The notes under the pieces are model-generated. The model was not told the origin of the DNA. It did not search any database and worked only from the letters and a program-made list of their open reading frames with translations. Position numbers and translations under genes: made by a program. 64,000 nt of DNA from Planctomycetota bacterium (GTDB lineage: Bacteria > Planctomycetota > Planctomycetia > Pirellulales > Pirellulaceae): the NCBI GenBank assembly GCA_963204915.1, contig CAUJHS010000082.1:186001-250000 (forward strand), written 5' to 3'. Numbering within the stretch: the first letter of the stretch is position 1; each line of letters opens with the position of its first letter. This document shows, piece after piece, positions 8,689 to 28,554 of this stretch.

Positions 8689-10116
8689 ATGGCATTGATT
8701 TTCCAAGGTAGAAAGAACGCAACGCCGCCCGGTCCTCCTAACGGCTTGATAGGACGCGATCATTATCGGCGTATCCGGTGCGATTTGCTGGAGTTCTCGC
8801 GATCGCTAATCCACGATTATGGCGACTGCGTCACATACCGCATTGGCCCGATGCGGTTTTTTCAATTAAGCCATCCAGAGCAGATCAGCGAATTGCTGAT
8901 TAGGAACGCAGAGTCGCTGCGCAAATTGACCATGGTGAAATGGTTCTTCAAGCGCTGGATGGGAAACGGTCTGCTGTTGAACGAAGGCCAGCCGTGGCAA
9001 CAACAGCGCCGCAAAGTGCGCTGGGCCATGCAACGCTTGGACGAGCAAAAACAGGCCGAGATGGTGGTGTGGCAGACGCGCGAATTGCTCGACAAACACG
9101 CAAATACTCAGGTTGATATTACGGCGTTATTGGACCGGCTCGCATTTTATTTCAACGTGCGAACCTTGTTGGGCGATGACGCCGACGACGTGCTGGAGCC
9201 AATTTACGCCGCCGCCAATGTCCTGCACGCAACAGGCATCCGTGAGTTGACCAGTTGGGGATTTACTCCCGACTGGGCGCCAACCACAACAAAACGGCAA
9301 ATGCGCGCAGCGCTGCACGCGTACCGCGGAACACTAATGAAACTTGCGGCCAAGCGTCGCCAGTCCCCAAGCCACGATGAAGATCGAGACTTGCTTGCCT
9401 GGATGATTGTCGCCAAAGATGTGCAGGGCAAAACGGAAGGTATGAGTGACCTCCAAGCGTGCGATGAGTCGGTCAACCTGTTAATGGGAGGTAAAGAAAC
9501 TGTCTCTGCGACACTGATTTGGGCTTCGTACTTGTTGGCAACTCACCCATGCGAACAAGCTCGCGCCGCGGAGGAAGTACATCGCGTTGTTGGCGACCGC
9601 GATGTGGCGTTAAGCGACTTAGATCACCTGCCCTTTACGCAATGCGTCGTGCAAGAGGCAATGCGGCTTTATCCGCCGGTTTACATGATTGCCCGCGAAG
9701 TGGCCCGCCCTATCACGATTGGCGGTTATCGGGCGCCGCGAGGAACGCAAATCCACGTACCCGTACACGCGATTCATCGAGATGCGCGGTGGTTCGAACG
9801 CCCCGACGAGTTTGTTCCCGAGCGGTTTTGCCCCGAGTTGAACAAGAGGCGGCCTCCCTACACGTTCATCCCCTTTGGAGTTGGACCTCGCAACTGCGTG
9901 GGAAAGAAAATAGGATATGAGCAATGCATGCTGGTGCTAGCCACTTTGCTCAAGTACTATTTAATGCATCTGGCGCCGAAGCAAGGCGTTCCGACGCTTT
10001 CGACCGACATTGTGCTCCACCCACGTGATCCGCTGCACTTGGTCATTGAGGCGCGTTGCCCAGCGTTAGCCATGTCGTATGATGAAACCGGATTGGAACG
10101 AGATTTGCCGCGATAA
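8689..10116 (+). CDS. Cytochrome P450 (copy 1)
   Basis: This 475-residue haem monooxygenase has all classical marks: a Pro-rich start (PPGPPNGLIGR), the I-helix GGKETVSA (acid Glu270, Thr271), the K-helix ExxR motif EAMRLYPP, the meander PERF, and the haem loop FGVGPRNCVG with the thiolate ligand at about Cys403. There is no N-terminal membrane anchor, so it is probably cytosolic and needs separate redox partners, none of which lies nearby. It is followed 70 bp later by a clear paralogue that aligns with it nearly end to end (shared MVKW.FKRWMG.GLLLNEG, RRKVRWAMQ, DEDRDLLAW). Substrate is unknown. No strong ribosome site is seen, but the start agrees with the paralogue. Confidence 0.94.
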   Translation: MALIFQGRKNATPPGPPNGLIGRDHYRRIRCDLLEFSRSLIHDYGDCVTYRIGPMRFFQLSHPEQISELLIRNAESLRKLTMVKWFFKRWMGNGLLLNEGQPWQQQRRKVRWAMQRLDEQKQAEMVVWQTRELLDKHANTQVDITALLDRLAFYFNVRTLLGDDADDVLEPIYAAANVLHATGIRELTSWGFTPDWAPTTTKRQMRAALHAYRGTLMKLAAKRRQSPSHDEDRDLLAWMIVAKDVQGKTEGMSDLQACDESVNLLMGGKETVSATLIWASYLLATHPCEQARAAEEVHRVVGDRDVALSDLDHLPFTQCVVQEAMRLYPPVYMIAREVARPITIGGYRAPRGTQIHVPVHAIHRDARWFERPDEFVPERFCPELNKRRPPYTFIPFGVGPRNCVGKKIGYEQCMLVLATLLKYYLMHLAPKQGVPTLSTDIVLHPRDPLHLVIEARCPALAMSYDETGLERDLPR

Positions 10117-10186
10117 ATGGACCAACGCGGCATGGACGCCTTTCCAACCGCAGTGCAGAAGGTTTTGAGCCGAACAGCTAGTTTTC

Positions 10187-11563
10187 ATGCACCGCCTTCC
10201 TCCAGGTCCCCCCAACGGCGTTTTCGGTCGTCGGCATTTTCGCCGGATCACGCGCAACCTGCTGGAATTCTCGCGCGATTTGCAGCGAGAGTATGGCGAC
10301 TGCGTGACATATCGTATCGGGCCGATCCGCTTCTACCAGTTCTGCCACCCGGACCAAATCGCCGAGCTACTCATCCGCAATGCTTTCCGACTGCACAAGC
10401 TGCAAATGGTGAAGTGGTACTTCAAGCGCTGGATGGGCGACGGGCTATTGCTGAACGAGGGCGAAGATTGGCAACATCAACGGCGCAAGGTCCGCTGGGC
10501 GATGCAACAGATGGACGCAGCCAAGAACGCCGCGATCGCGGTGGCGCAAGCCAAAGAGTTGCTATCGCGAAGTTCAGGACAAGTCGTAAACCTGGAGGCG
10601 CTGCTGGATCGTATCACCTTTTACTCCAACGTGCGTATCATGCTCGGTACCGACGGTGAGGCCGTCATGGCTCCGCTGTACGACGCCGCAAACATCCTCC
10701 ATGACACCGGCGTGCGCGAGTTGGAAAGCGCGTCCATGATCCCCGACTGGATGCCCATCGAATCGAAGCGGCGGCTGCGCCGCGCGATGCATTTCTACCG
10801 GCAAACGCTGCTCGACTTTTCCGCTCAACGCCGCGCGCGAACCATCGCCGACGAAGATCGCGACCTGCTCGCGTGGTTTATTGTTTCTCGCGATGTGCAA
10901 GGCAAGTCTCAGGGAATGAGCGATGTGCAAGCGTGTGACGAAGCGCTGACATCGTTGATGGGGGGCAAGGGGACCGTCTCCGCCTCGATCATGTGGGCCG
11001 CATACCTTTTGGCGCTGCACCCTAACGACCAAGAGCGGGCCGCAGAGGAGGTTTGCCAAGCCGTGGGCGAACGGGATGTAATGCTCGCCGATCTCGAACG
11101 CCTCCCTTTTACGCAGCAAGTCATTCTGGAAGCAATGCGAATGTACCCCGCGGGTTACATGCTCGCCCGCGAGGTCGCCGAGCCTTTCGAAGTAAATGGC
11201 TACCGCTTACCGCGTCGCGCCCAGGTTCACGTGCCGGTCCATCTTGTGCACCGCGATCCGCGCTGGTACGACAGGCCCGATGAATTTCTTCCGGAGCGGT
11301 TTCGCCCCGAAAACAAACTCAAGCAACGTCCTTATACTTTCATTCCGTTTGGCGTAGGAAGAAGAAACTGCGTTGGCAAGCGGTTGGGATTCCAGCAGTG
11401 TTTGCTCATCCTGGCCACGTTGTTGGCTGGGTATCGCGTCCGCTTGGCGCCAGGGCAAGGCGAACCGGCGTTGGCGACGGATATTGTCCTCCACACGCGC
11501 GACGGATTGCATATGATGCTCGAACCGAGAACATCGAACATCGCGACGCCCATTCACTCGTAG
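10187..11563 (+). CDS. Cytochrome P450 (copy 2), I-helix acid missing
   Basis: This 458-residue protein is a tandem paralogue of the preceding P450. The haem loop FGVGRRNCVG (about Cys395), the ExxR motif EAMRMYP and the meander PERF are intact. The I-helix reads GGKGTVSA: the acidic residue before the conserved Thr is Gly262 where copy 1 has Glu. In P450s this acid/alcohol pair delivers protons for O-O cleavage, so copy 2 may act with altered coupling, on an oxygenated substrate or by a peroxide-type route. The start at 10187 matches the first copy's PPGPPNG segment. A longer frame at 10117 in another phase is an overlap shadow. The absence of a redox partner gene also applies here. Confidence 0.93.
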   Translation: MHRLPPGPPNGVFGRRHFRRITRNLLEFSRDLQREYGDCVTYRIGPIRFYQFCHPDQIAELLIRNAFRLHKLQMVKWYFKRWMGDGLLLNEGEDWQHQRRKVRWAMQQMDAAKNAAIAVAQAKELLSRSSGQVVNLEALLDRITFYSNVRIMLGTDGEAVMAPLYDAANILHDTGVRELESASMIPDWMPIESKRRLRRAMHFYRQTLLDFSAQRRARTIADEDRDLLAWFIVSRDVQGKSQGMSDVQACDEALTSLMGGKGTVSASIMWAAYLLALHPNDQERAAEEVCQAVGERDVMLADLERLPFTQQVILEAMRMYPAGYMLAREVAEPFEVNGYRLPRRAQVHVPVHLVHRDPRWYDRPDEFLPERFRPENKLKQRPYTFIPFGVGRRNCVGKRLGFQQCLLILATLLAGYRVRLAPGQGEPALATDIVLHTRDGLHMMLEPRTSNIATPIHS

Positions 11564-16950: not shown

Positions 16951-18549
16951 TTAGTTTTTGCCCCACGCAGCTTGAGCAAAGTCTTCCAACTTACTGAAAT
17001 CGTCTTGCCAGGTGGTATACATTACCCCCGGTGTAGCTGAGAGCCCTTTGCCCTGATTAAGCCATGCAGCGATTTGACGGGGATCGGAATCGTAAAAGCC
17101 CGCGAGTACCTGATCATGCCCACGTTTTCCAAAAAAAGCCAAGCTTTCTTCGGCATGGCCATGATTCCAGTTTGCAATGACGATGTCCTTGGGCAGTCCT
17201 TCCCATGACCCTGTCAAATCGCCGTTTACGAGATAAAAGTCTTTTTTGGCGTTATGGTGGGGGTCGAACATGTCGGACCAAACGCATAAGCCTGCGTGGG
17301 GATTGACTTTACGTACAATCGCTGCGCATTGGCGCACATTTGCGGCAAGTAAGGCTCCTGCACTGCGACCCTCCTGATGACAAGATTCGCACCAGTTGGC
17401 CAGCCGAATTTCATCGTGTGAGAGGAAGTACGTCTTTGGTGCGAAAAGTCGTTCAACGCGCCGTACCTGATCCTCTAAGATTTGAAATACCTTGGGGTGA
17501 CCGAGGCAACACACCACCTGATTGTCGTAAATGGTGACTGTGTGAAAAAAGTGGACAACCAGTTTGTGGCCATCCGGAATCTTTGAACTGGCTGGAATGG
17601 TCAACTGAGGCGGCTCGTGCCATACATCATAGCCACCCGCCCAAGGGGTTCGTCCAACTTTGGGGTCATGCAATGGGGCGTAGTCTTGACCTTCGGCCAA
17701 CACTTGTCCACGTTCATCCCGAACGAGGAGCGGACATCCCTCACGCCGCAAAAGATTGACGAACGCGGTTTCCTCGAGCGCCAGTTCGTCCATCCAGAGC
17801 GTACCCTCTGTGCCGCCCCAGGTGCCGCAATACAAGCGAATTTCAGCGTTTTCTAAGCTATTGAACACAATATGGTGTTGCGTCCAGTCCTGGTTGAGTT
17901 GCACGCCCAAGTTGGAGTGCGACAACACCCGGCCGTCGGAACCCATGGCGAATAATCGAACGGTGTTGAACGACTTATAGTCGCGCGTTTTGATCCATAC
18001 CGAGGCGTGATACTGCCTCCACGGCGACACCGCCACGACGCGCGAGACACGGGCGTTGCCCTTGGTCGAAGCGGCTTGGCGTCCCGGATCAGTCCAGCGA
18101 AGTGAACTTCGGCCGGCATATTTTTCCCGCGTGTCGATGAAACTTGCCTGACCAGGGCTATCTTGGAAGCTCCACCCCGACGCCGAGTGGTTGCGATGCT
18201 CCTCAAATCCACCGCCGGGCAATAGGTTGACCTGCGAATTTTCCAGCACTGCAACGCGGTCTTTTACGACGAAGCGCGCATCGCGAACGGGTAAGCCTTC
18301 CGCTAAGTTGGGGTCGTGTGCTAAGAGCCCGTCGCTATATCCCATTGGCGCAACAGCGGGAATAATTTCGAGCCCCAGTTCATTAGCAATTTGCTTGAAC
18401 TGCCGCGCATGGTCAAAGTAGAAGTTGGGAACCCGATCAAGAATGTTCAGTTTGTAGTCGGCCAGGACAACACCGTTGTATCCTGCAGCAGCCGCACGCT
18501 CCATTATGTCCCGAGCTTTCTCGACATTCTCGCGCACCTGCAAGTTCAT
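16951..18549 (-). CDS. Glycosidase-like TIM-barrel/carbohydrate-binding protein, 5' end disrupted
   Basis: As an intact frame this gives 532 residues. The N-terminal part looks like half of a TIM barrel (RAAAAGYNGVVLADYKLN, GLEIIPAVAPMGYS), residues about 110-265 look like a carbohydrate-binding beta-sandwich (NLLPGGGFEEHRN through WGGTEGTLWMDELALEE), and the rest resumes the barrel (YFLSHDEIRLANWCESC, GLCVWSDMFDPHHNAK). This layout resembles family-20-type glycoside hydrolases split by an inserted domain; no precise family is claimed. The only start in the open frame is the ATG at 18549, with no good ribosome site. Upstream, in the same frame, a signal peptide beginning at 18660 is separated by one TGA at 18562-18564. 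The secreted form therefore cannot be made without readthrough, and the gene may be a recent pseudogene. Confidence 0.7.
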   Translation of the reverse strand: MNLQVRENVEKARDIMERAAAAGYNGVVLADYKLNILDRVPNFYFDHARQFKQIANELGLEIIPAVAPMGYSDGLLAHDPNLAEGLPVRDARFVVKDRVAVLENSQVNLLPGGGFEEHRNHSASGWSFQDSPGQASFIDTREKYAGRSSLRWTDPGRQAASTKGNARVSRVVAVSPWRQYHASVWIKTRDYKSFNTVRLFAMGSDGRVLSHSNLGVQLNQDWTQHHIVFNSLENAEIRLYCGTWGGTEGTLWMDELALEETAFVNLLRREGCPLLVRDERGQVLAEGQDYAPLHDPKVGRTPWAGGYDVWHEPPQLTIPASSKIPDGHKLVVHFFHTVTIYDNQVVCCLGHPKVFQILEDQVRRVERLFAPKTYFLSHDEIRLANWCESCHQEGRSAGALLAANVRQCAAIVRKVNPHAGLCVWSDMFDPHHNAKKDFYLVNGDLTGSWEGLPKDIVIANWNHGHAEESLAFFGKRGHDQVLAGFYDSDPRQIAAWLNQGKGLSATPGVMYTTWQDDFSKLEDFAQAAWGKN

Positions 18550-18561
18550 TTGCAGATAAAC

Positions 18562-18660
18562 TCAACGCCTCGGCGCCGGCCCCGCGGCATTCAGAATGTC
18601 GGCACGATTCAGGCACAGGGTCAACACGCACGCTATGATTGCCCCGGTTTTAATGTGCAT
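18562..18660 (-). pseudogene. Orphaned signal-peptide segment of the glycosidase-like gene
   Basis: From the ATG at 18660 (GGGAAGACC just upstream, 20 bp after the hybrid-kinase stop) the frame encodes MHIKTGAIIACVLTLCLNRA and a short tail ending in RR, then TGA, then VYLQ leading directly into the next Met without a change of frame. This is a typical Sec signal peptide. A single TGG-to-TGA change (Trp to stop) would explain the break, since RRWVYLQ would be an ordinary start of the mature domain. Alternatives are a sequencing error or UGA readthrough. Confidence 0.7.
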
Positions 18661-18680
18661 AACAGGTCTTCCCATAGCGA

Positions 18681-20678
18681 CTACGTCATGATTGACGCAC
18701 TCTCGTTCGACAACAAGGCCTGAAGCTGCGCGGGTTCGATGGGCTTGACCAGGTGGTGATCGAAACCCGCCGTTTTCGTGCGACGCCGATCCTCAGCTTG
18801 TCCCCACCCAGTAAGCGCAATCAAGATGATGTCTTGCCCCCACGGCTGCCGGCGAATCGACTGGGCGACGGCGTATCCATCCAGGTCGGGCATGCCCAAG
18901 TCAAGGATCATCACGTCGGGCTGGAATGCAGCAGCGGCCTCCAAACCTTGGGTCCCATCGTACGCCGTGCGCACTTCGTGCCCCAACATTTGCACGACGC
19001 GGCCAAGCATGTCGGCCGCGGCGCGGTTATCGTCAACAACCAGCACCCGTTGTTTTTTGTGCGGCCCCGCCGGCACATCGCACAGCGGCAAAGCACGCTC
19101 GCCTTCGACCTCATCCCGCCAGATGGGTAATCGAACGATGAACTCACTTCCCTGATTCTCGCCCGCGCTGTGAACTTCGACCGTTCCGCCGTGCAAATCG
19201 ACGAGCGACTTCACTAGCGTCAGGCCAATCCCTAGGCCGCGATACCCCTTCTCCAATGAACGATCAATTTGGGTGAACATCTCAAAAATGCGATCCTGCA
19301 TTTCCTGCGGAATACCCACCCCGGTGTCTTTTACGGAGATCGTCGCACATTGGTCTTGTTGCTCCGCGGTTAAGCGAATGACGCCGCGATCGGGAGTGTA
19401 CCGGGCGGCATTGTTCAACAGATTCGACACCACCTGCGCCAGCCGGTGCGGATCAGCGTTGAGGTATACGGGTTCCGGCGCCACCGACACGAGCAATTGA
19501 TGGCCCGCTTCATCGATGAACGGCCGACTTGCCTCCACCGCGCTTTGAATCACTTCGCTTAGTTCCACGCGCCGCGGGCGCAACTCTAATTTGCCGCGTG
19601 TGATACGCGAGACTTCCAACAGATCATCCACCAATCGCACCAATTGCTCCACTTGGCGCTCCATCGTAGCCCGAACTTCCTGGACAATTTCAGGGTTATC
19701 CGCGGCCAGTTTCATCACTTCCAAACCAGTGCGCACTGGCGCCAAAGGGTTGCGCAACTCGTGCGCCAGAATGGCAAGGAACTCGTCTTTCCGACGATCC
19801 GCGACGCGCAACTCCTCGACCAGGTTTTGTATGCGCTGCTGGGTTTCGCGTTCTTGGGTCGTGTCTCGCACCGTGCCAATGAACCGTACCGCGCGGCGGG
19901 CGTCTCCTTCGCCATCAAAGAACGCCTTGCCCTTGGCGACAATCCAGCGCACCGTGCCGTCGGGCCACTGAGCACGGTAGGAGATTTCGTATTGACCGTC
20001 GCTGGTGGGCTGCAGCGACGCCTTTACCGCGCGATCCGCCCTCTGTCGATCGTCAGGATGTAAACGGTCAAGGAAAATCGCATAACTGACCTCGGCGTCC
20101 GGAGTTAAGCCAAACATGGCTTTACATCGTTCGGACCACTGAAGCGTTTGCGCGACGGGATTGAAGTCCCAGGCGCCAATATCGGCCGACTCGACCGCCA
20201 TTCGAAACCGCGCTTCGCTTGCACGCAGTTCATCGTTCGCCCATTTCAACTCGGCAGTGCGCTGTTCCACGCGGCGCTCGAGTTCCTGTCGACTGCGCCA
20301 GCGCTCGCGGGCGTAACGAATTGAACGTTCGAGCAAAGTGGCGTCTAATCGCCCTTTTTCTAAATAGTCGGATACTCCGGCTTCCGCCGCTTCGATATCA
20401 ATCTCGCGTTCGCCTTGCCCGGTGAGCAAGATCGTTGGCATGGCGGCCCCAAACGCAGACGCTTCCCGCAAGAGTTCAACGCCCGTGCGACTTCCCAATC
20501 GGTAGTCGAGCAGGCATAGGTCGTACTCCTGGCGGCGCATGGCTTGCAGCCCCGACTCGAAATCCGAGGCCCAATCCAGCTTATGGCCCCCGTTCATATC
20601 GGCGAACAATTCGCGCGTGAGGAGATAATCGTCCTCGTCATCTTCAATTAGCAGCACACGCAAGGGCTTACCAGTCAC
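18681..20678 (-). CDS. Hybrid histidine kinase, REC-PAS-HisKA-HATPase-REC
   Basis: About 665 residues and soluble. Order: receiver 1 (LLIEDDEDDYLL, phospho-Asp in LCLLDYRLGSR), coiled linker, PAS (ADIGAWDFNPVAQTL to the PAC segment FIGTVRDTTQ), H-box LAILAHELRNPLAPV, HATPase (NLLNNAARYTPD, DTGVGIP, GLGIGLTLV) and receiver 2 (VLVVDDNRAAADML, phospho-Asp in VMILDLGMPDLDG). Being flanked by two receivers, it can act as a relay hub. GTG at 20678 has GGAG 6 nt upstream and is preferred; another GTG at 20708 extends the frame by ten codons. It follows a single-domain regulator and a CHASE3 kinase on the same strand and is followed 20 bp later by the signal-peptide ATG of the glycosidase-like gene. 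Confidence 0.9.
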   Translation of the reverse strand: MTGKPLRVLLIEDDEDDYLLTRELFADMNGGHKLDWASDFESGLQAMRRQEYDLCLLDYRLGSRTGVELLREASAFGAAMPTILLTGQGEREIDIEAAEAGVSDYLEKGRLDATLLERSIRYARERWRSRQELERRVEQRTAELKWANDELRASEARFRMAVESADIGAWDFNPVAQTLQWSERCKAMFGLTPDAEVSYAIFLDRLHPDDRQRADRAVKASLQPTSDGQYEISYRAQWPDGTVRWIVAKGKAFFDGEGDARRAVRFIGTVRDTTQERETQQRIQNLVEELRVADRRKDEFLAILAHELRNPLAPVRTGLEVMKLAADNPEIVQEVRATMERQVEQLVRLVDDLLEVSRITRGKLELRPRRVELSEVIQSAVEASRPFIDEAGHQLLVSVAPEPVYLNADPHRLAQVVSNLLNNAARYTPDRGVIRLTAEQQDQCATISVKDTGVGIPQEMQDRIFEMFTQIDRSLEKGYRGLGIGLTLVKSLVDLHGGTVEVHSAGENQGSEFIVRLPIWRDEVEGERALPLCDVPAGPHKKQRVLVVDDNRAAADMLGRVVQMLGHEVRTAYDGTQGLEAAAAFQPDVMILDLGMPDLDGYAVAQSIRRQPWGQDIILIALTGWGQAEDRRRTKTAGFDHHLVKPIEPAQLQALLSNESASIMT

Positions 20679-20765
20679 AACTGTCTCCGAAAGTGGGTTC
20701 AGACACACCGCGCTGCGTCAGCGCTACGAGCCTCAACCGTCGGGGCAGGGTTAGGTACGGCGCGA

Positions 20766-21233
20766 TCATTCGCCGTTGGCCTCGCTGGGAAGTTCAACGA
20801 TTTCCAGCCAGTATTTACCAAGGGTCCGAATTACCTCGGCCAGGCCGGTGAAGGTGACAGGTTTGGTAATGTACGACGCCGCGGAGAGCTCATAAATGCG
20901 CTCAATGTCTTCTTCCGCCTTGGATGTGGTCATGACTACGACGCGAATACTCTTGAGCTTGGGGTCGTTCTTGATTTCGCGTAACGCTTCCCGGCCGTCC
21001 ATCTTGGGCATATTCAAATCGAGCAGAATCAAGCCGGGCCGCGGCGAAGTGGCCGGGTCGCTAAACTTGCCGCGCCGACAAAGATAATCCATCAGTTCTT
21101 CGCCGTCTTCCACAAACCGTAAGTCGTTGGCGAGCCGGCTTTCTTCGAACGCCTCTTTGGTCATTTGGCGGTCGTCGGCATCGTCGTCGGCCATCAAAAT
21201 GGTAATCGGCTTGCCGGTCTTAGTTTGTGTCAT
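20766..21233 (-). CDS. Single-domain response regulator, Rcp1-like
   Basis: This 155-residue protein is a lone receiver: ILMADDDADDRQM (acidic pocket), phospho-Asp in LILLDLNMPKMDG, Thr/Ser switch VVVMTTSKAEED and Lys in YITKPVTF. The insert LMDYLCRRGKFSD after helix 2 is typical of Rcp1-type partners of phytochrome-like kinases. No output domain is present, so it probably shuttles phosphate to the hybrid kinase or binds a protein target. The ATG at 21233 overlaps the end of the upstream kinase gene by 14 bp, which points to translational coupling; an in-frame GTG at 21248 is a second possible start. Confidence 0.9.
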   Translation of the reverse strand: MTQTKTGKPITILMADDDADDRQMTKEAFEESRLANDLRFVEDGEELMDYLCRRGKFSDPATSPRPGLILLDLNMPKMDGREALREIKNDPKLKSIRVVVMTTSKAEEDIERIYELSAASYITKPVTFTGLAEVIRTLGKYWLEIVELPSEANGE

Positions 21234-23973
21234 CGTGGCTTTCGTCACTCTCGTGTGGGGTGGGTTGCTGCAAGGGGAGGGTAATCAGGAACGTCGCGCC
21301 CTCGCCGGGGGAACTGCGCGCGGTGATGCTTCCGTTGTGGCGCTGGACAATCTTGCGGCAGATCGCCAGTCCCATGCCCGTCCCCTCATATTCTAAACGA
21401 CCATGGAGTCGCTGAAAGACCTCAAAGATGCGATCGAGGTATTTCTCGTCGAATCCGATGCCGTTGTCCTGAACCGCCACTTCCACGGAAGGAGCCGGCT
21501 CTCGCAAGGTTTCTTCGTTCTCCGACGAATTCGCTTGCCGCATTTCCAGCTCGGCCGGCTCCAAGATGCGGGCCGAGACACGAACCACGGGAGGCGTGCC
21601 GGGCTTTTGGAACTTCAGTCCATTGGCAATGAGGTTTTGCAGCAATTGGCGCATTTGCAGGCGGTCTGCATCGAGCGTTGGTAATTCGCCTATTTCAACC
21701 TGGCCGCCAGCCTGTTGAAGTCGCCCCTCAAGGTCCGAAACCACATCGTGCGCCACCTCGTTCAGATCAACGGGCTCAAACGGTTGGGCTTTGGTCGTTA
21801 CGCGAGAGAACGAGAGCAAATCGTCGATCAAGCGGCGCATCCGCGAAGCCGCCGTTTGCATGCGTAATACGTAGTCGCGGCCCGTTTCATCTAAGGCGGC
21901 GACGTATTTTGCTTGCAAACGGTCGCCAAATGCTTGAATCTTGCGAAGCGGTTCTTGCAAATCATGTGAGGCGACCGAAGCGAATTGCTCTAATTCTCGG
22001 TTGCTGCGCTGCAGCGCTTCGTTGGTTTTCGTGAGTTTCGCGGTGCGTTCCTGGACGCGCTGTTCGAGCCGTTCATTCGTGCTGAGCAATTCCTGCTGGG
22101 TCAGATGCAGCCGAATGCCGGCTGCGACCTCTTGTGCGATCGACGCCATCGCGTCCAGCGTGGTCGATGAGAGCGGTCGTCGACTGAACATCGCCATGAC
22201 ACCGACGAGTTCATGATCCAGCACCAGGGGGAAACCAGCGAATGCGACGAGGCCTTCGCGCTGCGCCCACTCCTGCTCGGGCACTTGCGGGTCGCCAATC
22301 ACCTGATTGGTTACATGTGGTTGGCGTTCTTGCGCGATGCGTCCAATTTTGAACTTTCCCACCGGTACGCGCGCATGCCCACCGTCGATATGCGTATACA
22401 AGCCGGCGCTGGCTTGAAGTTCGAGCACGTTCTCTTCTGCGTGCAATGTCCACACGCGCGCAAAGGCGGCGTCAAGCCGGTGCACGATCGCCTCCGAACA
22501 GCTTTGCAGCATGTCGCGTAACGTTTCGCCCTGCGTCAGCGCGGCGCCCACTTCGGCCCGTAGCGCCAGCAGTTGCATTCGTTCAGCAAGCGCCGCTTCG
22601 GTTTGTTTGCGGTCCGAAATATCTCGCAAAAAACCAGTGAATAACGGCGGATGGTGGCTGATTTGCGCGATGGCGATTTCGATCGGAAACTCCTCGCCCG
22701 AGTTGCGGAGCGCAGAAAATTCTAATCTTTGATTCAAAATCGGCCCGTCGCCGGTCGCAACACAACGAACCAAGGCTTTCCGGTGTCGCTCTCGATACGC
22801 TGGTGGAATCAGGATCTCGGCCGCCTCGCGACCTAAGACCGTTTCTTTGGTCGTTTCGAAGATTTGCTCGGCCGCCCGGTTGAACTCGACGATGTTCCCC
22901 GCATGATCGATGGTGATCACGCCATCCAGAGCAGCGTTCACGACGGCCGCCTTGCGCGCTTCGCTTGCTTGCAAAGCGCGCTCCGCCTCGCGCCGGTTCG
23001 CCACATCCCGGAAAATGAGCACAACCCCACGCAATCGGCCGCGCTCGCCGCGTATCGGGGCGGCGCTATCGTCAATCGGGCGATGCATTCCGCCCTTGGT
23101 GATGAGCGCCGTGTGATTCGCCAGCCCTACAACGATGCCTTCGCGCAGCACTTTCGCGACGGGGCTTTCGACTGGTTTCAATGACTCTTCATTCACAATA
23201 CGGAAGACGTCTTCGAGCGGCCGTTCGTGGGACTCCGTGTTCGTCCAACCCGTCAGTGCTTCCGCTACGGGGTTCAAGTACGTAATGCGCCCTTGCGTGT
23301 CCGTTGTGATGACTGCATCTCCAATACTGGACAACGTCACGCGCAGGGTTTCTTCCGTTTGAATAATTCCGCGCGACACGACCCCGCTGGTTGCAGCCGC
23401 GGTAACTAATCCGACAACGAACAGCGCCACGGTAAACGCCAACAACGACTGGGCTATGCCGCGGGTCTGAATGCGCTGCGGGGCGAGTTCTTGCGCATTG
23501 ATATTCTCCAGTTCATCTTGGATCAAATCCGCCAGCGTAATGCGCTGATCCACCAGGAGCTTAAAGTCGTCCAGCCAAGGTTCGCCTTGATCGCGCCGCT
23601 CCAAAAGACGTTGTCCCAAATCGTGAAACTCGCCAAACTGGGTTGCGATCTGTTCACCGGCGTTTCGCCGGCGCGGCGTGACGGCCAAACTTCGGTACGT
23701 CTTGAGATGTTGATAAAATTGGACCGTTTCGTCGTCGAAGCGTTGGCGGCTGCGTACTTCTTGCGTGTGAAGGTAATTTGATACCGCGGCGCCAACTCCG
23801 TTCGCCCGAAACGCCATGCCACTAACCGCGTCATTGAGCGGTCCGGCCGAGAGCGTCAATTGCCGCACCTCAGCGTCCAGCGCTCGCAGCCAATAAATTT
23901 GCGGGACGACGATCAACACCAACACGGCGATGACAACGCCAAACCCCAGCCAAAGTTTCGTGGTGGTGCTCAT
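21220..23973 (-). CDS. Membrane sensor histidine kinase, CHASE3-PAS-PAS-GAF-HisKA-HATPase
   Basis: This 917-residue kinase has TM1 (about 7-28), a helical periplasmic CHASE3-like domain (about 35-175), TM2 (about 178-200), PAS 1 (ITYLNPVAEALTGW), PAS 2 (IVEFNRAAEQIFETT), GAF (about 475-620; GLVAFAGFPLVLDHELVGVMAMF), a coiled coil and the H-box FASVASHDLQEPLRKI, which belongs to the phytochrome-like group. HATPase boxes are NLIANGLKFQKPG, DNGIGFD and GTGMGLAI. The PAS/PAC ends FRDVANRREAE and LRDISDRKQTE are clear. The cognate receiver is most likely the overlapping Rcp1-like gene downstream. The input signal is unknown; CHASE3 domains sense extracytoplasmic cues. About 250 bp upstream lies a strong inverted repeat that may be regulatory. 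Confidence 0.92.
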   Translation of the reverse strand: MSTTTKLWLGFGVVIAVLVLIVVPQIYWLRALDAEVRQLTLSAGPLNDAVSGMAFRANGVGAAVSNYLHTQEVRSRQRFDDETVQFYQHLKTYRSLAVTPRRRNAGEQIATQFGEFHDLGQRLLERRDQGEPWLDDFKLLVDQRITLADLIQDELENINAQELAPQRIQTRGIAQSLLAFTVALFVVGLVTAAATSGVVSRGIIQTEETLRVTLSSIGDAVITTDTQGRITYLNPVAEALTGWTNTESHERPLEDVFRIVNEESLKPVESPVAKVLREGIVVGLANHTALITKGGMHRPIDDSAAPIRGERGRLRGVVLIFRDVANRREAERALQASEARKAAVVNAALDGVITIDHAGNIVEFNRAAEQIFETTKETVLGREAAEILIPPAYRERHRKALVRCVATGDGPILNQRLEFSALRNSGEEFPIEIAIAQISHHPPLFTGFLRDISDRKQTEAALAERMQLLALRAEVGAALTQGETLRDMLQSCSEAIVHRLDAAFARVWTLHAEENVLELQASAGLYTHIDGGHARVPVGKFKIGRIAQERQPHVTNQVIGDPQVPEQEWAQREGLVAFAGFPLVLDHELVGVMAMFSRRPLSSTTLDAMASIAQEVAAGIRLHLTQQELLSTNERLEQRVQERTAKLTKTNEALQRSNRELEQFASVASHDLQEPLRKIQAFGDRLQAKYVAALDETGRDYVLRMQTAASRMRRLIDDLLSFSRVTTKAQPFEPVDLNEVAHDVVSDLEGRLQQAGGQVEIGELPTLDADRLQMRQLLQNLIANGLKFQKPGTPPVVRVSARILEPAELEMRQANSSENEETLREPAPSVEVAVQDNGIGFDEKYLDRIFEVFQRLHGRLEYEGTGMGLAICRKIVQRHNGSITARSSPGEGATFLITLPLQQPTPHESDESHDDTN

Positions 23974-24302
23974 CGTCGAGTTGGTGTGGCTTGAGGATGC
24001 CGCGGAACCGAACGAACAGCGAAGCCGTCTGTTTCCGCACCGCGATTCGAGGGGCGTTCACGTCGGCGGAGAGAGTCGCACCGGTCTTGCCCGAAGGTTG
24101 GCGAACCCTAACCGATCGACGCAAAATGAAATCCGTCAAGAACTTAGGGGACCGCTTCAACTTAACTGACGGAGCGGGACTCTCGGCGGGGATCGTGTAG
24201 GTGCTTGTGAAAGCGGCATTGGCAAACTTAAACCCCATTGCTGCAGTGATTTACAGCGACCTGCCCGTTAACACGATCGCTCACGAACTTTAGCAAGTAT
24301 CA

Positions 24303-24331
24303 CGCTGATTGACCCACTGTGTCAATCAGTG
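24303..24331 (-). repeat. Inverted repeat downstream of kdp operon
   Basis: Arms CTGATTGAC (24305-24313) and GTCAATCAG (24321-24329) are a perfect 9-bp match around a 7-nt centre, extended to 11 bp by one wobble and one C-G pair. No T-tract follows on either strand. It may end or protect the kdp message, or be an operator for the divergent side; no transposase lies next to it. Confidence 0.55.
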
Positions 24332-24414
24332 GCGGCTTATGCAGTCTCTTTCGACATTCAATCCAGAAACCGGCAGAAACCGCACCTTTGCTGAAGCGGC
24401 ATGAAAGGTAAGAA

Positions 24415-24534
24415 CTACGTAATCGGCTGCCCAGGATGGCTCGACGCATAGGGCGGCTTGTAGGTCACGTCGATCATGATCGCCGGAGAAAGGCCCTCGA
24501 GTCGTAGCAGACTCAGAAGAGACGTTGGAGTCAT
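24415..24534 (-). CDS. Possible 39-residue protein after kdpE
   Basis: A short frame starts 48 bp beyond the kdpE stop with AGGAG 9 nt before its ATG. The product starts MTPTSLLSLLRLEGLSPA and has a polar tail with YKPPYASSHPGQ. I recognise nothing in it. The good ribosome site and the position at the end of the kdp operon favour a real gene; its small size makes chance equally possible. It could also be the remnant of a longer gene broken at the edge of the imported block. Confidence 0.3.
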   Translation of the reverse strand: MTPTSLLSLLRLEGLSPAIMIDVTYKPPYASSHPGQPIT

Positions 24535-24582
24535 GCCTGATTGCTCCTGTCAGCGGTACGTGAACCAGCCAAGTGATTGCTG

Positions 24583-25275
24583 TTACTCAGCGGCGAACCG
24601 ATATCCCACGCCTTGTTCAGTTAGGATGTAGCGGGGACGAGCCGCGTTGTCTTCGAGTTTCCGTCGCATGCTGGCGACGAACACCCGGAGGTAATGGTTC
24701 TCCTGGGAGTCCTGCGGCCCCCATACTTCTCGCAGCAGGAACCGGTGCGTCAGCACTTTTCCGGCGTGTTTGACCATCGTTACGAGGAGTTTGTACTCCA
24801 GCGGCGTCAGGTGAACCTCGTCGCCGTTGCGGTACACGAGCCGGGCGGCCAGATCGACACGGATATCACCAATGGTTACGGTCATCGCTTCCGGGCCAAC
24901 TTGGTGAGCGTGACGGATGGCCGTTCGCATTCTGGCGAGAAGTTCTCCCACGCCAAACGGTTTCGTGACGTAGTCGTCAGCCCCGCTGTCAAGCGCCGTG
25001 ATCTTCTGCGACTCCTGATCTCGTGCGGAGAGGACGATAATGGGGGACGTATACCACTCTCGCAGCCTCTTCAGCACGTCTTGTCCATCGAGGTCGGGAA
25101 GACCGAGATCGAGAATCACGAGGTCGGGCGGCTGGGCCGCCGCCATTCGCAATCCCTCTTCACCGGAAATGGCTTCGCTGACCCGATAACCCTGGTTCGA
25201 CAACGATGCCTTCAAGAACCTGCGGATCGGTTGCTCATCTTCGATGATCAAAATGTGATGGCCGTTGGCTTGCAT
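24583..25275 (-). CDS. kdpE: KdpE response regulator
   Basis: This 230-residue OmpR-family regulator turns on the kdp operon when phosphorylated by KdpD under potassium limitation or osmotic upshift. Receiver: ILIIEDEQPIRRFL, phospho-Asp in VILDLGLPDLDG, switch IIVLSARD, Lys in YVTKPF. C-terminal winged helix: HLTPLEYKLLVTMVKHAGKV, with the recognition helix in LRVFVASMRRKLE. The length is standard. Its ATG is 4 bp after the kdpD stop, so the two are co-translated. Direct recognition is strong because the complete kdp set precedes it. Confidence 0.96.
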   Translation of the reverse strand: MQANGHHILIIEDEQPIRRFLKASLSNQGYRVSEAISGEEGLRMAAAQPPDLVILDLGLPDLDGQDVLKRLREWYTSPIIVLSARDQESQKITALDSGADDYVTKPFGVGELLARMRTAIRHAHQVGPEAMTVTIGDIRVDLAARLVYRNGDEVHLTPLEYKLLVTMVKHAGKVLTHRFLLREVWGPQDSQENHYLRVFVASMRRKLEDNAARPRYILTEQGVGYRFAAE

Positions 25276-25279
25276 AGCC

Positions 25280-27970
25280 CTATTCTACCACGACCCGCGG
25301 CGCATCCTTCGGAAGCGGCAACCGGATCACAAATTCGGCGCCGCCGCCGGGGCGATTGGCGGCGACGATTGTGCCGCTGTGGGCTTTAATGATGGCTCGA
25401 CAGATGGCAAGTCCGAGGCCACTCCCTCGACCGCCATCCGCGGTTGATGATGCTCGATAGAACTTGTCGAAGATTCGCTCTTCGGCGCCGGCGGGCAGAC
25501 CCGGTCCATTGTCTGAGATGGCGATACGCACCTGCTTGCCATCGAGCGCCGCTCTGATCGTCAATTCGGTTCCTTCTGGCGTGTAGCGAGCCGCGTTCTC
25601 GAAGAGATTGACGAAGACCTGCTCCATAAGAAGACCGTCCACGTACAAGAGAGGCAGATCGTTGGGCAGATGGACGGCAACCTCGTGTCGAGCCAGTTCA
25701 CGACGAGTACGATGGAGCGCGGAACCAACAAGCTCTTCCAAGACATGCCATTGGCAATTTGGAGTCGCCGCCCCTGCCTCCAGCTTCGACATCTGAAGAA
25801 TGTTTTCGAGTAGACGATTGAGACGAGCCGCCTCATCGGCCACCGTTTCGAGCAACTGACGGCTTGTGTCTTCGTCGAGCGAAGAAGCTTCTAGCAGGCT
25901 ACTACTCGCCCCGGCAATGGCGGCGAGCGGTGTCTTCAGGTCGTGAGACACGCTGCTCAGCAGGCTGCTCCGAACCTGTTCGGCGTCTGCTTGGATGCGA
26001 GCGTTGGCGGCCTCAATCGCGAGTTGATCTCGTTCCAGAGCCAACGCCAGTTGGTTCGCACACGCATCCAAGAGGCGACGGAATTCCGGGTCGAGCAATC
26101 GCTCGGCGTCTGGCGCCCGAATGGCAATTGCACCGTGGGTGCCTTGCGAGCCTGTTAAGGGGAAGAACAGGGCCACCGCATTCGGGAGAGTATTCGTTCC
26201 GGCCCCTGCGACCTGATCGTGCTCAATCACCCACTGGGCCACGGGCAGGCTCACCGCATGCTTGGCAATTGTGGTGTCGTGTCCGAAAGCGAGTTCCGGC
26301 GAACTTGACGGCTGACGCAAGTAGATCGCCACTTCCCCGCCCAGCATCTCGGCAATCTTGCCGCCCGCCGCTCCCACCAGAAACACATTCCCGTACAACG
26401 AACTCAGTTGCTTCCCCAACTCGTAGAGGGCTGAAGTCCGCCGCTCCCGCTGGCGGGTGCTCTCAATCTGTGCTCGCAAGCGGGAAGTCAGTGTGCTGAT
26501 GACAAGACCGATGGTCAGCATGGCCGCAAACGTGACCACGTATTGCGTGTCGGCGACGGCGAACGTGTGGAACGGCGGAACGAAGAAGAAGTCGAACACG
26601 AGGACGGCCAGGATGCTTGCGAAAATCGCTGGCCCTCGTCCATAACGAAAGGCCGTCCAGGCGACCGCCGCCAGAAATAACATCACGGTATTCGCTTCAG
26701 CGTCAGCGAAATGCAGGAAGCGAAGCCCGTAAGCGATTAAGCCCGTTAGGCCGACAAGTCCAAACGCTAAGAAGTAGTGAAGTTTCGTCGCAGGCGAGGT
26801 TGTTGTACGAGCGGGAGCGTCTTCTGTCTGCTCTTCCTCGCCATGGATGACATACACGTCGATGTCGCCGCTGTTCTCCAATACGTCATCCACGACGGTG
26901 CCGAAGATCAGTCGTCGCCACCGTGGCTGGTTTGTCTTGCCGATCAGAATCTTGGTAACGTTTCGAGAACGGGCAAAGTCAAGAATCGTGTCGGTGACGT
27001 TCTGCCCGGCCAGAGTGGCCGTTTCCGCTCCTAACCGTTCGGCGAGTCGGAAATGTTGGCTGACCTGCTGCTTGGCAGGGGTGCTCGATGGTTCGCCAGT
27101 GAGATCAACGGAGACCGCCAGCCAGGGTGCATCCAGAGCCGCCGCCATCCGTCGAGCGGTGCGAATGACACGGGCGGTGGTGGGACTAGGCCCCACGCAT
27201 ACCAGCAGCCGCTCAGCAGTGGCCCACGGTTGGATGGCCGCCTTCTCTCGCCGGGCCGACTCAACATCGGTATGAATGCGACGAGCCGCTTGCCGCAATG
27301 AAAGTTCCCGGAGAGCGGTGAGGTTGGATTTCTGGAAGAAGTTTTGGATTGCTCGCTGAGCTTGTTCGGTAACGTAGACCTTGCCTGCCTTGAGCCGGAG
27401 CAGCAATTCTTCCGGCGTGATGTCCACAAGCTCTAGGTCGTCCGCCAAATCGAACGCTCGGTCGGGCACCGTCTCTCGAACGGTGACGCCAGTAATCTGC
27501 CCAATCACATCGTTGAGGCTCTCGATGTGCTGAACATTGAGCGTCGTCCAGACATTGATCCCCGCTTCAAGAAGCTCTTCCACATCCTGCCAGCGTTTCT
27601 CGTGTCGACAACCGACTGCGTTGGTATGAGCCAGTTCATCGACGAGAATCAGGTCGGGGCTACGGGCCAGGGCTGCGTCGACGTCAAAGTCTCGAAGCGT
27701 GACGCCACGATATTCGTACTCGCGCACCGGGAGGACTTCGAGACCGGAGAGCAACGCTTCCGTTTCCGGGCGACCATGCGGTTCGACATAACCGACGACG
27801 ACTTCTCGCCCTTCCGCTTTCGCACGTTGGGCGTTCTCCAGCATGGAATAGGTTTTTCCGACACCGGCGGCATACCCGAAGAACACCTTCAGCGAGCCAC
27901 GCTTGGCCTCGGCTTCTTCCGCCTGCACTTGGGCAAGCAGATCATCAGGATTGGGGCGAACATCGGGCAT
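25280..27970 (-). CDS. kdpD: KdpD sensor histidine kinase
   Basis: About 896 residues. N-terminal KdpD domain with Walker A GYAAGVGKTYSMLE and Walker B-like LILVDELAHTN, a Usp-like domain (about 245-370; LLVCVGPSPTTARVIRTA), four closely packed membrane segments (about 400-500), a GAF-like region, the H-box SSVSHDLKTPLAAIAG and HATPase boxes NLFENAARYTPEG, DNGPGLP and GSGLGLAI. It is an integral inner-membrane sensor of potassium and turgor, and kinase/phosphatase of KdpE. ATG 27970 is 8 bp after kdpC; a TTG at 27982 overlapping the kdpC stop is an alternative. All domains of full-length KdpD are present. Confidence 0.96.
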   Translation of the reverse strand: MPDVRPNPDDLLAQVQAEEAEAKRGSLKVFFGYAAGVGKTYSMLENAQRAKAEGREVVVGYVEPHGRPETEALLSGLEVLPVREYEYRGVTLRDFDVDAALARSPDLILVDELAHTNAVGCRHEKRWQDVEELLEAGINVWTTLNVQHIESLNDVIGQITGVTVRETVPDRAFDLADDLELVDITPEELLLRLKAGKVYVTEQAQRAIQNFFQKSNLTALRELSLRQAARRIHTDVESARREKAAIQPWATAERLLVCVGPSPTTARVIRTARRMAAALDAPWLAVSVDLTGEPSSTPAKQQVSQHFRLAERLGAETATLAGQNVTDTILDFARSRNVTKILIGKTNQPRWRRLIFGTVVDDVLENSGDIDVYVIHGEEEQTEDAPARTTTSPATKLHYFLAFGLVGLTGLIAYGLRFLHFADAEANTVMLFLAAVAWTAFRYGRGPAIFASILAVLVFDFFFVPPFHTFAVADTQYVVTFAAMLTIGLVISTLTSRLRAQIESTRQRERRTSALYELGKQLSSLYGNVFLVGAAGGKIAEMLGGEVAIYLRQPSSSPELAFGHDTTIAKHAVSLPVAQWVIEHDQVAGAGTNTLPNAVALFFPLTGSQGTHGAIAIRAPDAERLLDPEFRRLLDACANQLALALERDQLAIEAANARIQADAEQVRSSLLSSVSHDLKTPLAAIAGASSSLLEASSLDEDTSRQLLETVADEAARLNRLLENILQMSKLEAGAATPNCQWHVLEELVGSALHRTRRELARHEVAVHLPNDLPLLYVDGLLMEQVFVNLFENAARYTPEGTELTIRAALDGKQVRIAISDNGPGLPAGAEERIFDKFYRASSTADGGRGSGLGLAICRAIIKAHSGTIVAANRPGGGAEFVIRLPLPKDAPRVVVE

Positions 27971-27978
27971 TGACGGAC

Positions 27979-28554
27979 TCAATTCATCTGATGTTGATCC
28001 AAAGCGAGATTCAGTCGCAGCACATTCACACGAGGCTCCCCAAGGATTCCAAGTTGTCGGCCTTCCGTAGACTGGCGAATGAGTTCACGCACGGCGTTTT
28101 CAGACATTTTCCTCGATGCGGCGATTCTTGGCGCCTGGAACTCGGCTGCCGCCGGCGAGATGTGGGGGTCGAGACCGCTGGCGGATGCGGTCAAAAGATC
28201 GACCGGAACCGTTTTTCCCGAAGACCCTGCGGCTTGAAGTGCGGACAGGCGAGCTTCGGCAGCTTGCTTGAGACCGGGGTGCAGGGGGCCGAAGTTCGAG
28301 CCACTGGAGGCCGCTGCGTTGTAGGGAAACGGGGCAGTCGCCGAGAGGCGCCCCCAAAAGTATTCCGGGCGAGAAAATGGCTGCCCAATTAGTTCCGAAC
28401 CAGCGATCTGCGCGCCTCGTTGAATGAGGCTGCCGTTGGCCTGCGTCGGGAACGCCACGTGAGCGATTGCTGTCACGACCAGTGGATAGACGCCTCCGGT
28501 GAGAAAGGTCAACGCGATCAATACCAGTGTTGCCGTGCGAAGTTGTTGAATCAT
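27979..28554 (-). CDS. kdpC: Potassium-transporting ATPase subunit KdpC
   Basis: This 191-residue subunit has one N-terminal membrane helix (TLVLIALTFLTGGVYPLVVTAIA) and a periplasmic domain with the family motifs GSLIQRGAQIAGSELIGQ, YFWGRLSAT, NAAASSGSN and DLLTASASGLDPHISPAAAEFQ. KdpC stabilises KdpB and raises its ATP affinity in the KdpFABC pump. The start at 28554 has AAGGAGAG upstream; the frame continues to 28629 but overlaps the end of kdpB. It sits 13 bp after kdpB. Confidence 0.96.
   Translation of the reverse strand: MIQQLRTATLVLIALTFLTGGVYPLVVTAIAHVAFPTQANGSLIQRGAQIAGSELIGQPFSRPEYFWGRLSATAPFPYNAAASSGSNFGPLHPGLKQAAEARLSALQAAGSSGKTVPVDLLTASASGLDPHISPAAAEFQAPRIAASRKMSENAVRELIRQSTEGRQLGILGEPRVNVLRLNLALDQHQMN

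Follow-up and report, generated by a model that had tools for sequence, protein, structure and literature searches.

Bacterial genes that are intact but for an in-frame stop codon have been widely described, and such stops are mostly short-lived at the population scale (Belinky et al. 2021, PMC7918605). A UGA can also be read as Trp by an altered tRNA-Trp(CCA), either one with a 4-bp anticodon stem or one with the Hirsh G24A change, which is listed as a UGA read-through variant (PMC13092985). In bacterial selenoprotein genes, a UGA inside the open reading frame is followed by a bSECIS hairpin, for which the published rules give a loop 16-37 nt from the UGA, a G within the first two nucleotides of the loop, a loop of 3-9 nt, a stem of 4-16 bp and a minimum free energy of -7.5 kcal/mol or lower (PMC13188914). 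Cys homologues exist for almost all selenoproteins (PMC1088965).

Here we describe a gene interrupted by TGA in a stretch of 64,000 nucleotides from the genome of an environmental planctomycete (hereafter the window). The locus resembles the cases collected by Belinky et al. (PMC7918605) in having a single nonsense codon, a constrained remainder and no wider decay; unlike those cases, it is represented by one genome. With UGA-Trp systems based on tRNA-Trp(CCA) (PMC13092985) it shares a UGA standing where Trp is expected, but the tRNA-Trp genes of the host have a full anticodon stem and its genome makes no genome-wide use of UGA as Trp. It is likewise comparable to bSECIS selenoprotein genes in possessing a UGA inside the reading frame, a downstream hairpin and a host with tRNA-Sec and SelB, but differs from them in the lack of Cys homologues, in the spacing of the hairpin and in the missing loop G.

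Reading frame and homologues

The gene lies on the minus strand, where a frame of 32 codons (18565-18660) starts with an ATG at 18660 and encodes MHIKTGAIIACVLTLCLNRADILNAAGPAPRR, which comprises a signal peptide, recognised by eye from its composition, and the start of the mature N-terminus. This frame ends at an in-frame TGA (18562-18564), beyond which it continues as VYLQMNLQV and stays open for 532 codons, from a Met at 18549 to a TAA at 16951 (16951-18549, minus strand), encoding the remainder of a GH20-like glycosidase that is predicted to be secreted and to carry a CBM4/9-like insert. The TGA, which lies outside any homopolymer, is the sole interruption of the glycosidase frame, with neither a frameshift nor another stop in the 532 codons. 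Minus-strand translation bore out the coordinates and frame given in the initial annotation. That annotation had also proposed a signal peptide with its own ribosome site; the signal peptide stands, whereas the ribosome site is weaker than claimed, since the sequence GGGAAG, 7 nt before ATG 18660, scores -4.2 kcal/mol against the anti-Shine-Dalgarno sequence, a value attained by about 24% of random positions. Similarly, the frame that begins at 18660 holds, but the exact start is uncertain because a second in-frame ATG is present at 18672.

The ATG at 18660 follows, after 20 bp, the end of a gene on the same strand for a hybrid histidine kinase/response regulator (18681-20708), and the two genes, to judge by their spacing alone, may possibly be co-transcribed. 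The region directly upstream of the glycosidase gene, from 18681 to 27982, is occupied on the same strand by a two-component gene cluster that includes hybrid kinases, response regulators and KdpD/KdpE-like proteins.

Related loci, drawn both from GTDB species genomes and from other genomes in the host's family, yielded a homologue set of 91 distinct sequences, about 32-61% identical. At the column of the stop, 85 of these have Trp and six have Phe, with Cys in none and a stop in none, in keeping with the earlier suggestion that a restored Trp would give RRWVYLQ. The window sequence RR-(stop)-VYLQ-M-NLQV aligns with the relatives' RRWVYLQ-x-NLQV without a gap, its signal-peptide junction AA(G/E)P-x-RRW agrees with theirs, and in all 91 homologues the signal peptide leads gaplessly into [RLK]-[WF]-[VLFI]-[YWF]. 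These alignments indicate that the frame on both sides of the TGA is truly one gene. The column of the internal Met at 18549 is variable, with T, V, W or Q in most relatives and also A; one close relative (L095) shares the Met, as part of a longer frame that is intact. Met 18549 was ruled out as a native start on the grounds of this variability, the upstream continuation of all 91 homologues with W or F and the lack of a Shine-Dalgarno sequence. The idea that homologues begin at the internal Met is accordingly refuted, and the alignment marks this Met as an ordinary residue.

The geometry itself is less informative. The window contains 36 stop-to-stop frames with a length of 250 codons or more; five of them are preceded by an ATG-led in-frame stretch of at least 30 codons that ends at the upstream stop, and the two longest of these five represent separate neighbouring genes (HlyD/CusB followed by an AcrB-type/CusA-type efflux pump, and a DapA-like gene followed by proline racemase). 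Since like geometry is found in 5 of 36 frames, geometry alone is not rare; it is homology that establishes the stop-interrupted glycosidase gene as real. The finding is real but ordinary, and its significance is chiefly one of annotation: an automatic gene caller would give a 532-aa cytoplasmic protein from 18549, and this call would be wrong because the frame is the broken remainder of a predicted secreted enzyme. Two homologues on MAG contigs (L041 and L075) are divided over two frames, probably through assembly frameshifts or as pseudogenes, and broken copies of this glycosidase family therefore occur elsewhere.

The predicted enzyme, its conservation and its distribution

The window protein shares its profile and fold over the catalytic half with the GH20 domain (PF00728), as represented by Treponema denticola lacto-N-biosidase (9fyl/9fym) and Niako3494 (8bal). 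Its Pfam GH20 score of 19.9 bits does not reach the curated cut-off of 22.3, and the GH20 profile matches 16 of 70 members of the glycosidase family at E <= 0.01. A profile search returned the GH20 structures 9fym, 9fyl and 8bal, together with the carbohydrate-binding module 4d0q for the middle part. Structural modelling of the read-through protein with AlphaFold2, using the protein and 69 relatives as input, gave a model with a pLDDT of 93.8 and a pTM of 0.90, in which residues 2-22 form a helix (pLDDT 62-68) and the stop-containing segment RWVYL (32-36) forms strand 1 of the predicted barrel. With this model, Foldseek matched the middle to CBM4/CBM16-type modules and the rest to GH20 barrels (9fyl, 8bal); the CBM4/9-like insert spans roughly residues 146-296 in read-through numbering. 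In the same numbering, D416-E417 is an invariant Asp-Glu pair in the family and may be equivalent to the catalytic pair of GH20 enzymes. These models predict a secreted GH20-like glycosidase whose TIM barrel holds a carbohydrate-binding insert. The protein, for which glycosidase activity is a prediction, is unlike described GH20 systems in scoring below the Pfam cut-off, in having a CBM4/9-like insert inside the barrel, and in belonging to a family found mainly in Planctomycetota and Verrucomicrobiota.

The claim that the mature part is open and constrained was upheld. At the 40 columns conserved in at least 95% of the family, the window protein departs at none (family mean 0.62); at the 62 columns conserved at 90% or above there is one departure, S370 to H (mean 2.3), and at the 98 columns conserved at 80% or above there are three (mean 7.7). 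When compared with its ten closest relatives it departs from 5 of 168 invariant columns, within a leave-one-out range of 0-10. No decay is seen in the mature part, which by these sequence comparisons looks intact. The neutral expectation for the open reading frame is about 0.64 new stops per 1% divergence, indels not counted, and since none was found, any inactivation would be recent. The intact remainder allows three readings: a recent stop, a false stop or continued production of the protein. Identity to the nearest relatives is about 60%, a distance too great for a dN/dS clock.

Among 241 genomes of the family, 17 carry the gene; it was not found in the one congener searched, a genome 72% complete, and a search for plasmid relatives returned no match. 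It is a patchy, accessory gene, so that its loss would be tolerable.

UGA decoding in the host genome

The host genome (G000) is a draft of 9.24 Mb in 118 contigs, 99.6% complete. It encodes the release factor RF2 (472.6 bits), and a survey of two large families, sulfatase and PSD1, covering some 34,000 codons as estimated from listed spans, identified no internal stops in 134 domain matches. With RF2 intact and these control matches free of stops, genome-wide reassignment of UGA to Trp (code 4) was excluded, and UGA has its standard meaning in this genome. Among the tRNA genes scanned, a UCA anticodon was found in tRNA-Sec alone, and a suppressor tRNA with this anticodon was rejected on that basis. 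The main tRNA-Trp is standard, with a 5-bp anticodon stem and a C11-G24 pair. A second tRNA-Trp(CCA), which lies in a tRNA array, has a U11-A24 pair. A 4-bp anticodon stem was rejected for tRNA-Trp, as the stem is 5 bp or longer in each copy. Two tRNA arrays, including the second tRNA-Trp(CCA), were observed (C22:31465-33276 and C83:51461-54008; L159 and L160), with at least 15 and at least 19 tRNA genes, and resemble those of mobile elements or large phages.

Directly 3' of the UGA, at 18532-18561 on the minus strand, the transcript can form the hairpin UAUCUGCAA-AUGAAC-UUGCAGGUG, with 9 bp (including two G-U pairs), a 6-nt loop AUGAAC located 12 nt from the UGA and an energy of -11.9 kcal/mol. 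It folds modestly better than shuffled sequences (z = -2.0, -1.4 and -1.4 in three windows), and its strength is uneven across relatives that have TGG. The hairpin is a consequence of the family motif LQxNLQ, whose two Leu-Gln pairs are encoded here by CTGCAA and TTGCAG, which are mutual reverse complements.

The presence of such a hairpin after the UGA, in a host with the selenocysteine machinery, would be in keeping with a selenocysteine codon at 18562-18564. A tRNA-Sec gene (66.7 bits) is found on the contig of the window, some 63 kb before the window begins (C82:122785-122881; L158:9786-9884), and SelB (370 bits) is encoded on C16, so the host probably decodes some UGA codons as selenocysteine. 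For this UGA, the prospect is negligible. Of the four published bSECIS rules, the hairpin agrees with those for loop size, stem and energy (6 nt, 9 bp, -11.9 kcal/mol), but it breaks two, with its 12-nt spacing against the 16-37 nt expected and a loop whose first two positions lack a G (PMC13188914); Rfam gave no match at the site of the stop and hairpin. Furthermore, none of the 91 homologues has Cys at the column, whereas a selenoprotein nearly always has homologues with Cys (PMC1088965), and the site is a structural strand rather than a redox centre. The selenocysteine reading was rejected on the absence of Cys homologues together with the failed spacing and G rules. More broadly, the suggestion of a read-through or recoded UGA gained no positive support, there being no UGA reassignment, suppressor tRNA, valid SECIS or Cys homologue. 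The tRNA-Sec gene itself sits between an msrA-like gene and a truncated-globin-like open reading frame.

Explanations for the stop codon

A recent nonsense mutation and a sequencing error, two of the causes that the initial annotation had offered, are both supported. The main rival to a nonsense mutation is an error in the consensus, from sequencing or assembly, or else an allele of a minority strain, in which case the true base would give Trp and the gene would be intact. We regard this as a substantial minority prospect: the sole lesion is a single-base difference, the mature part is under full constraint and the assembly is a 118-contig draft. Moreover, as one genome assembly is the sole source, a consensus error would give the same picture. 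Against it, the stop-free control matches imply that such errors are uncommon, and the site lies outside a homopolymer; both points lower the probability of an error.

If the base is real, the UGA might be read as Trp by a near-cognate tRNA-Trp(CCA) at low but useful efficiency, with the stop serving as an expression throttle. This would restore the family residue and fits the lack of decay downstream, and a stable hairpin begins 3-6 nt after the UGA. The U11-A24 pair of the array-borne second tRNA-Trp(CCA) is suggestive at most: the Hirsh G24A suppressor creates this pair in E. coli tRNA-Trp, but it is common among tRNAs as a whole. Since the main tRNA-Trp is standard, the hairpin is a by-product of the LQxNLQ codons, with its modest and uneven stability, and the stop is kept in no second genome among the homologues, we consider such misreading unlikely. 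Its stronger form, in which the UGA is a maintained throttle and a near-cognate tRNA-Trp, perhaps the array-borne one with U11-A24, acts with the hairpin to yield a little exported wild-type glycosidase, is very unlikely. Were the stop maintained and read through, it would provide a clean natural case in which a Sec-decoding planctomycete controls an exported enzyme through UGA misreading. Translation might instead restart inside the gene, at ATG 18549 or 18504, to give a cytoplasmic enzyme without a signal peptide, and an in-frame ATG only 12 nt past the stop does make short-range re-initiation conceivable. This is highly improbable, since ATG 18549 has no Shine-Dalgarno sequence (-2.2 kcal/mol, against a stronger mean of -2.6 for random positions), lies within the hairpin loop and corresponds to a variable column, and the product would miss both the signal peptide and barrel strand 1.

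The stop is shared by none of the 91 homologues, which come from other species, and among these relatives shows no sign of having been inherited. Absence of decay would be equally expected of a read-through gene that still functions, which counts against reading it as a sign of mutation. Even so, the explanation that we consider probable is that an otherwise intact, accessory GH20-like glycosidase gene has very recently acquired a nonsense mutation, and we infer that the base is real, that the mutation is recent and that the protein has been lost. A single transition would have changed a Trp codon to TGA, and ribosomes starting at 18660 would make the 32-residue signal-peptide fragment and then stop. 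The exported enzyme would be absent or, at most, made in trace amounts when tRNA-Trp misreads UGA in the ordinary way, and the mutation would be too young for a second lesion to have accumulated.

Elsewhere in the window, positions 8689-11563 hold a tandem pair of cytochrome P450-like genes, encoding mutually similar proteins of 475 and 458 aa.
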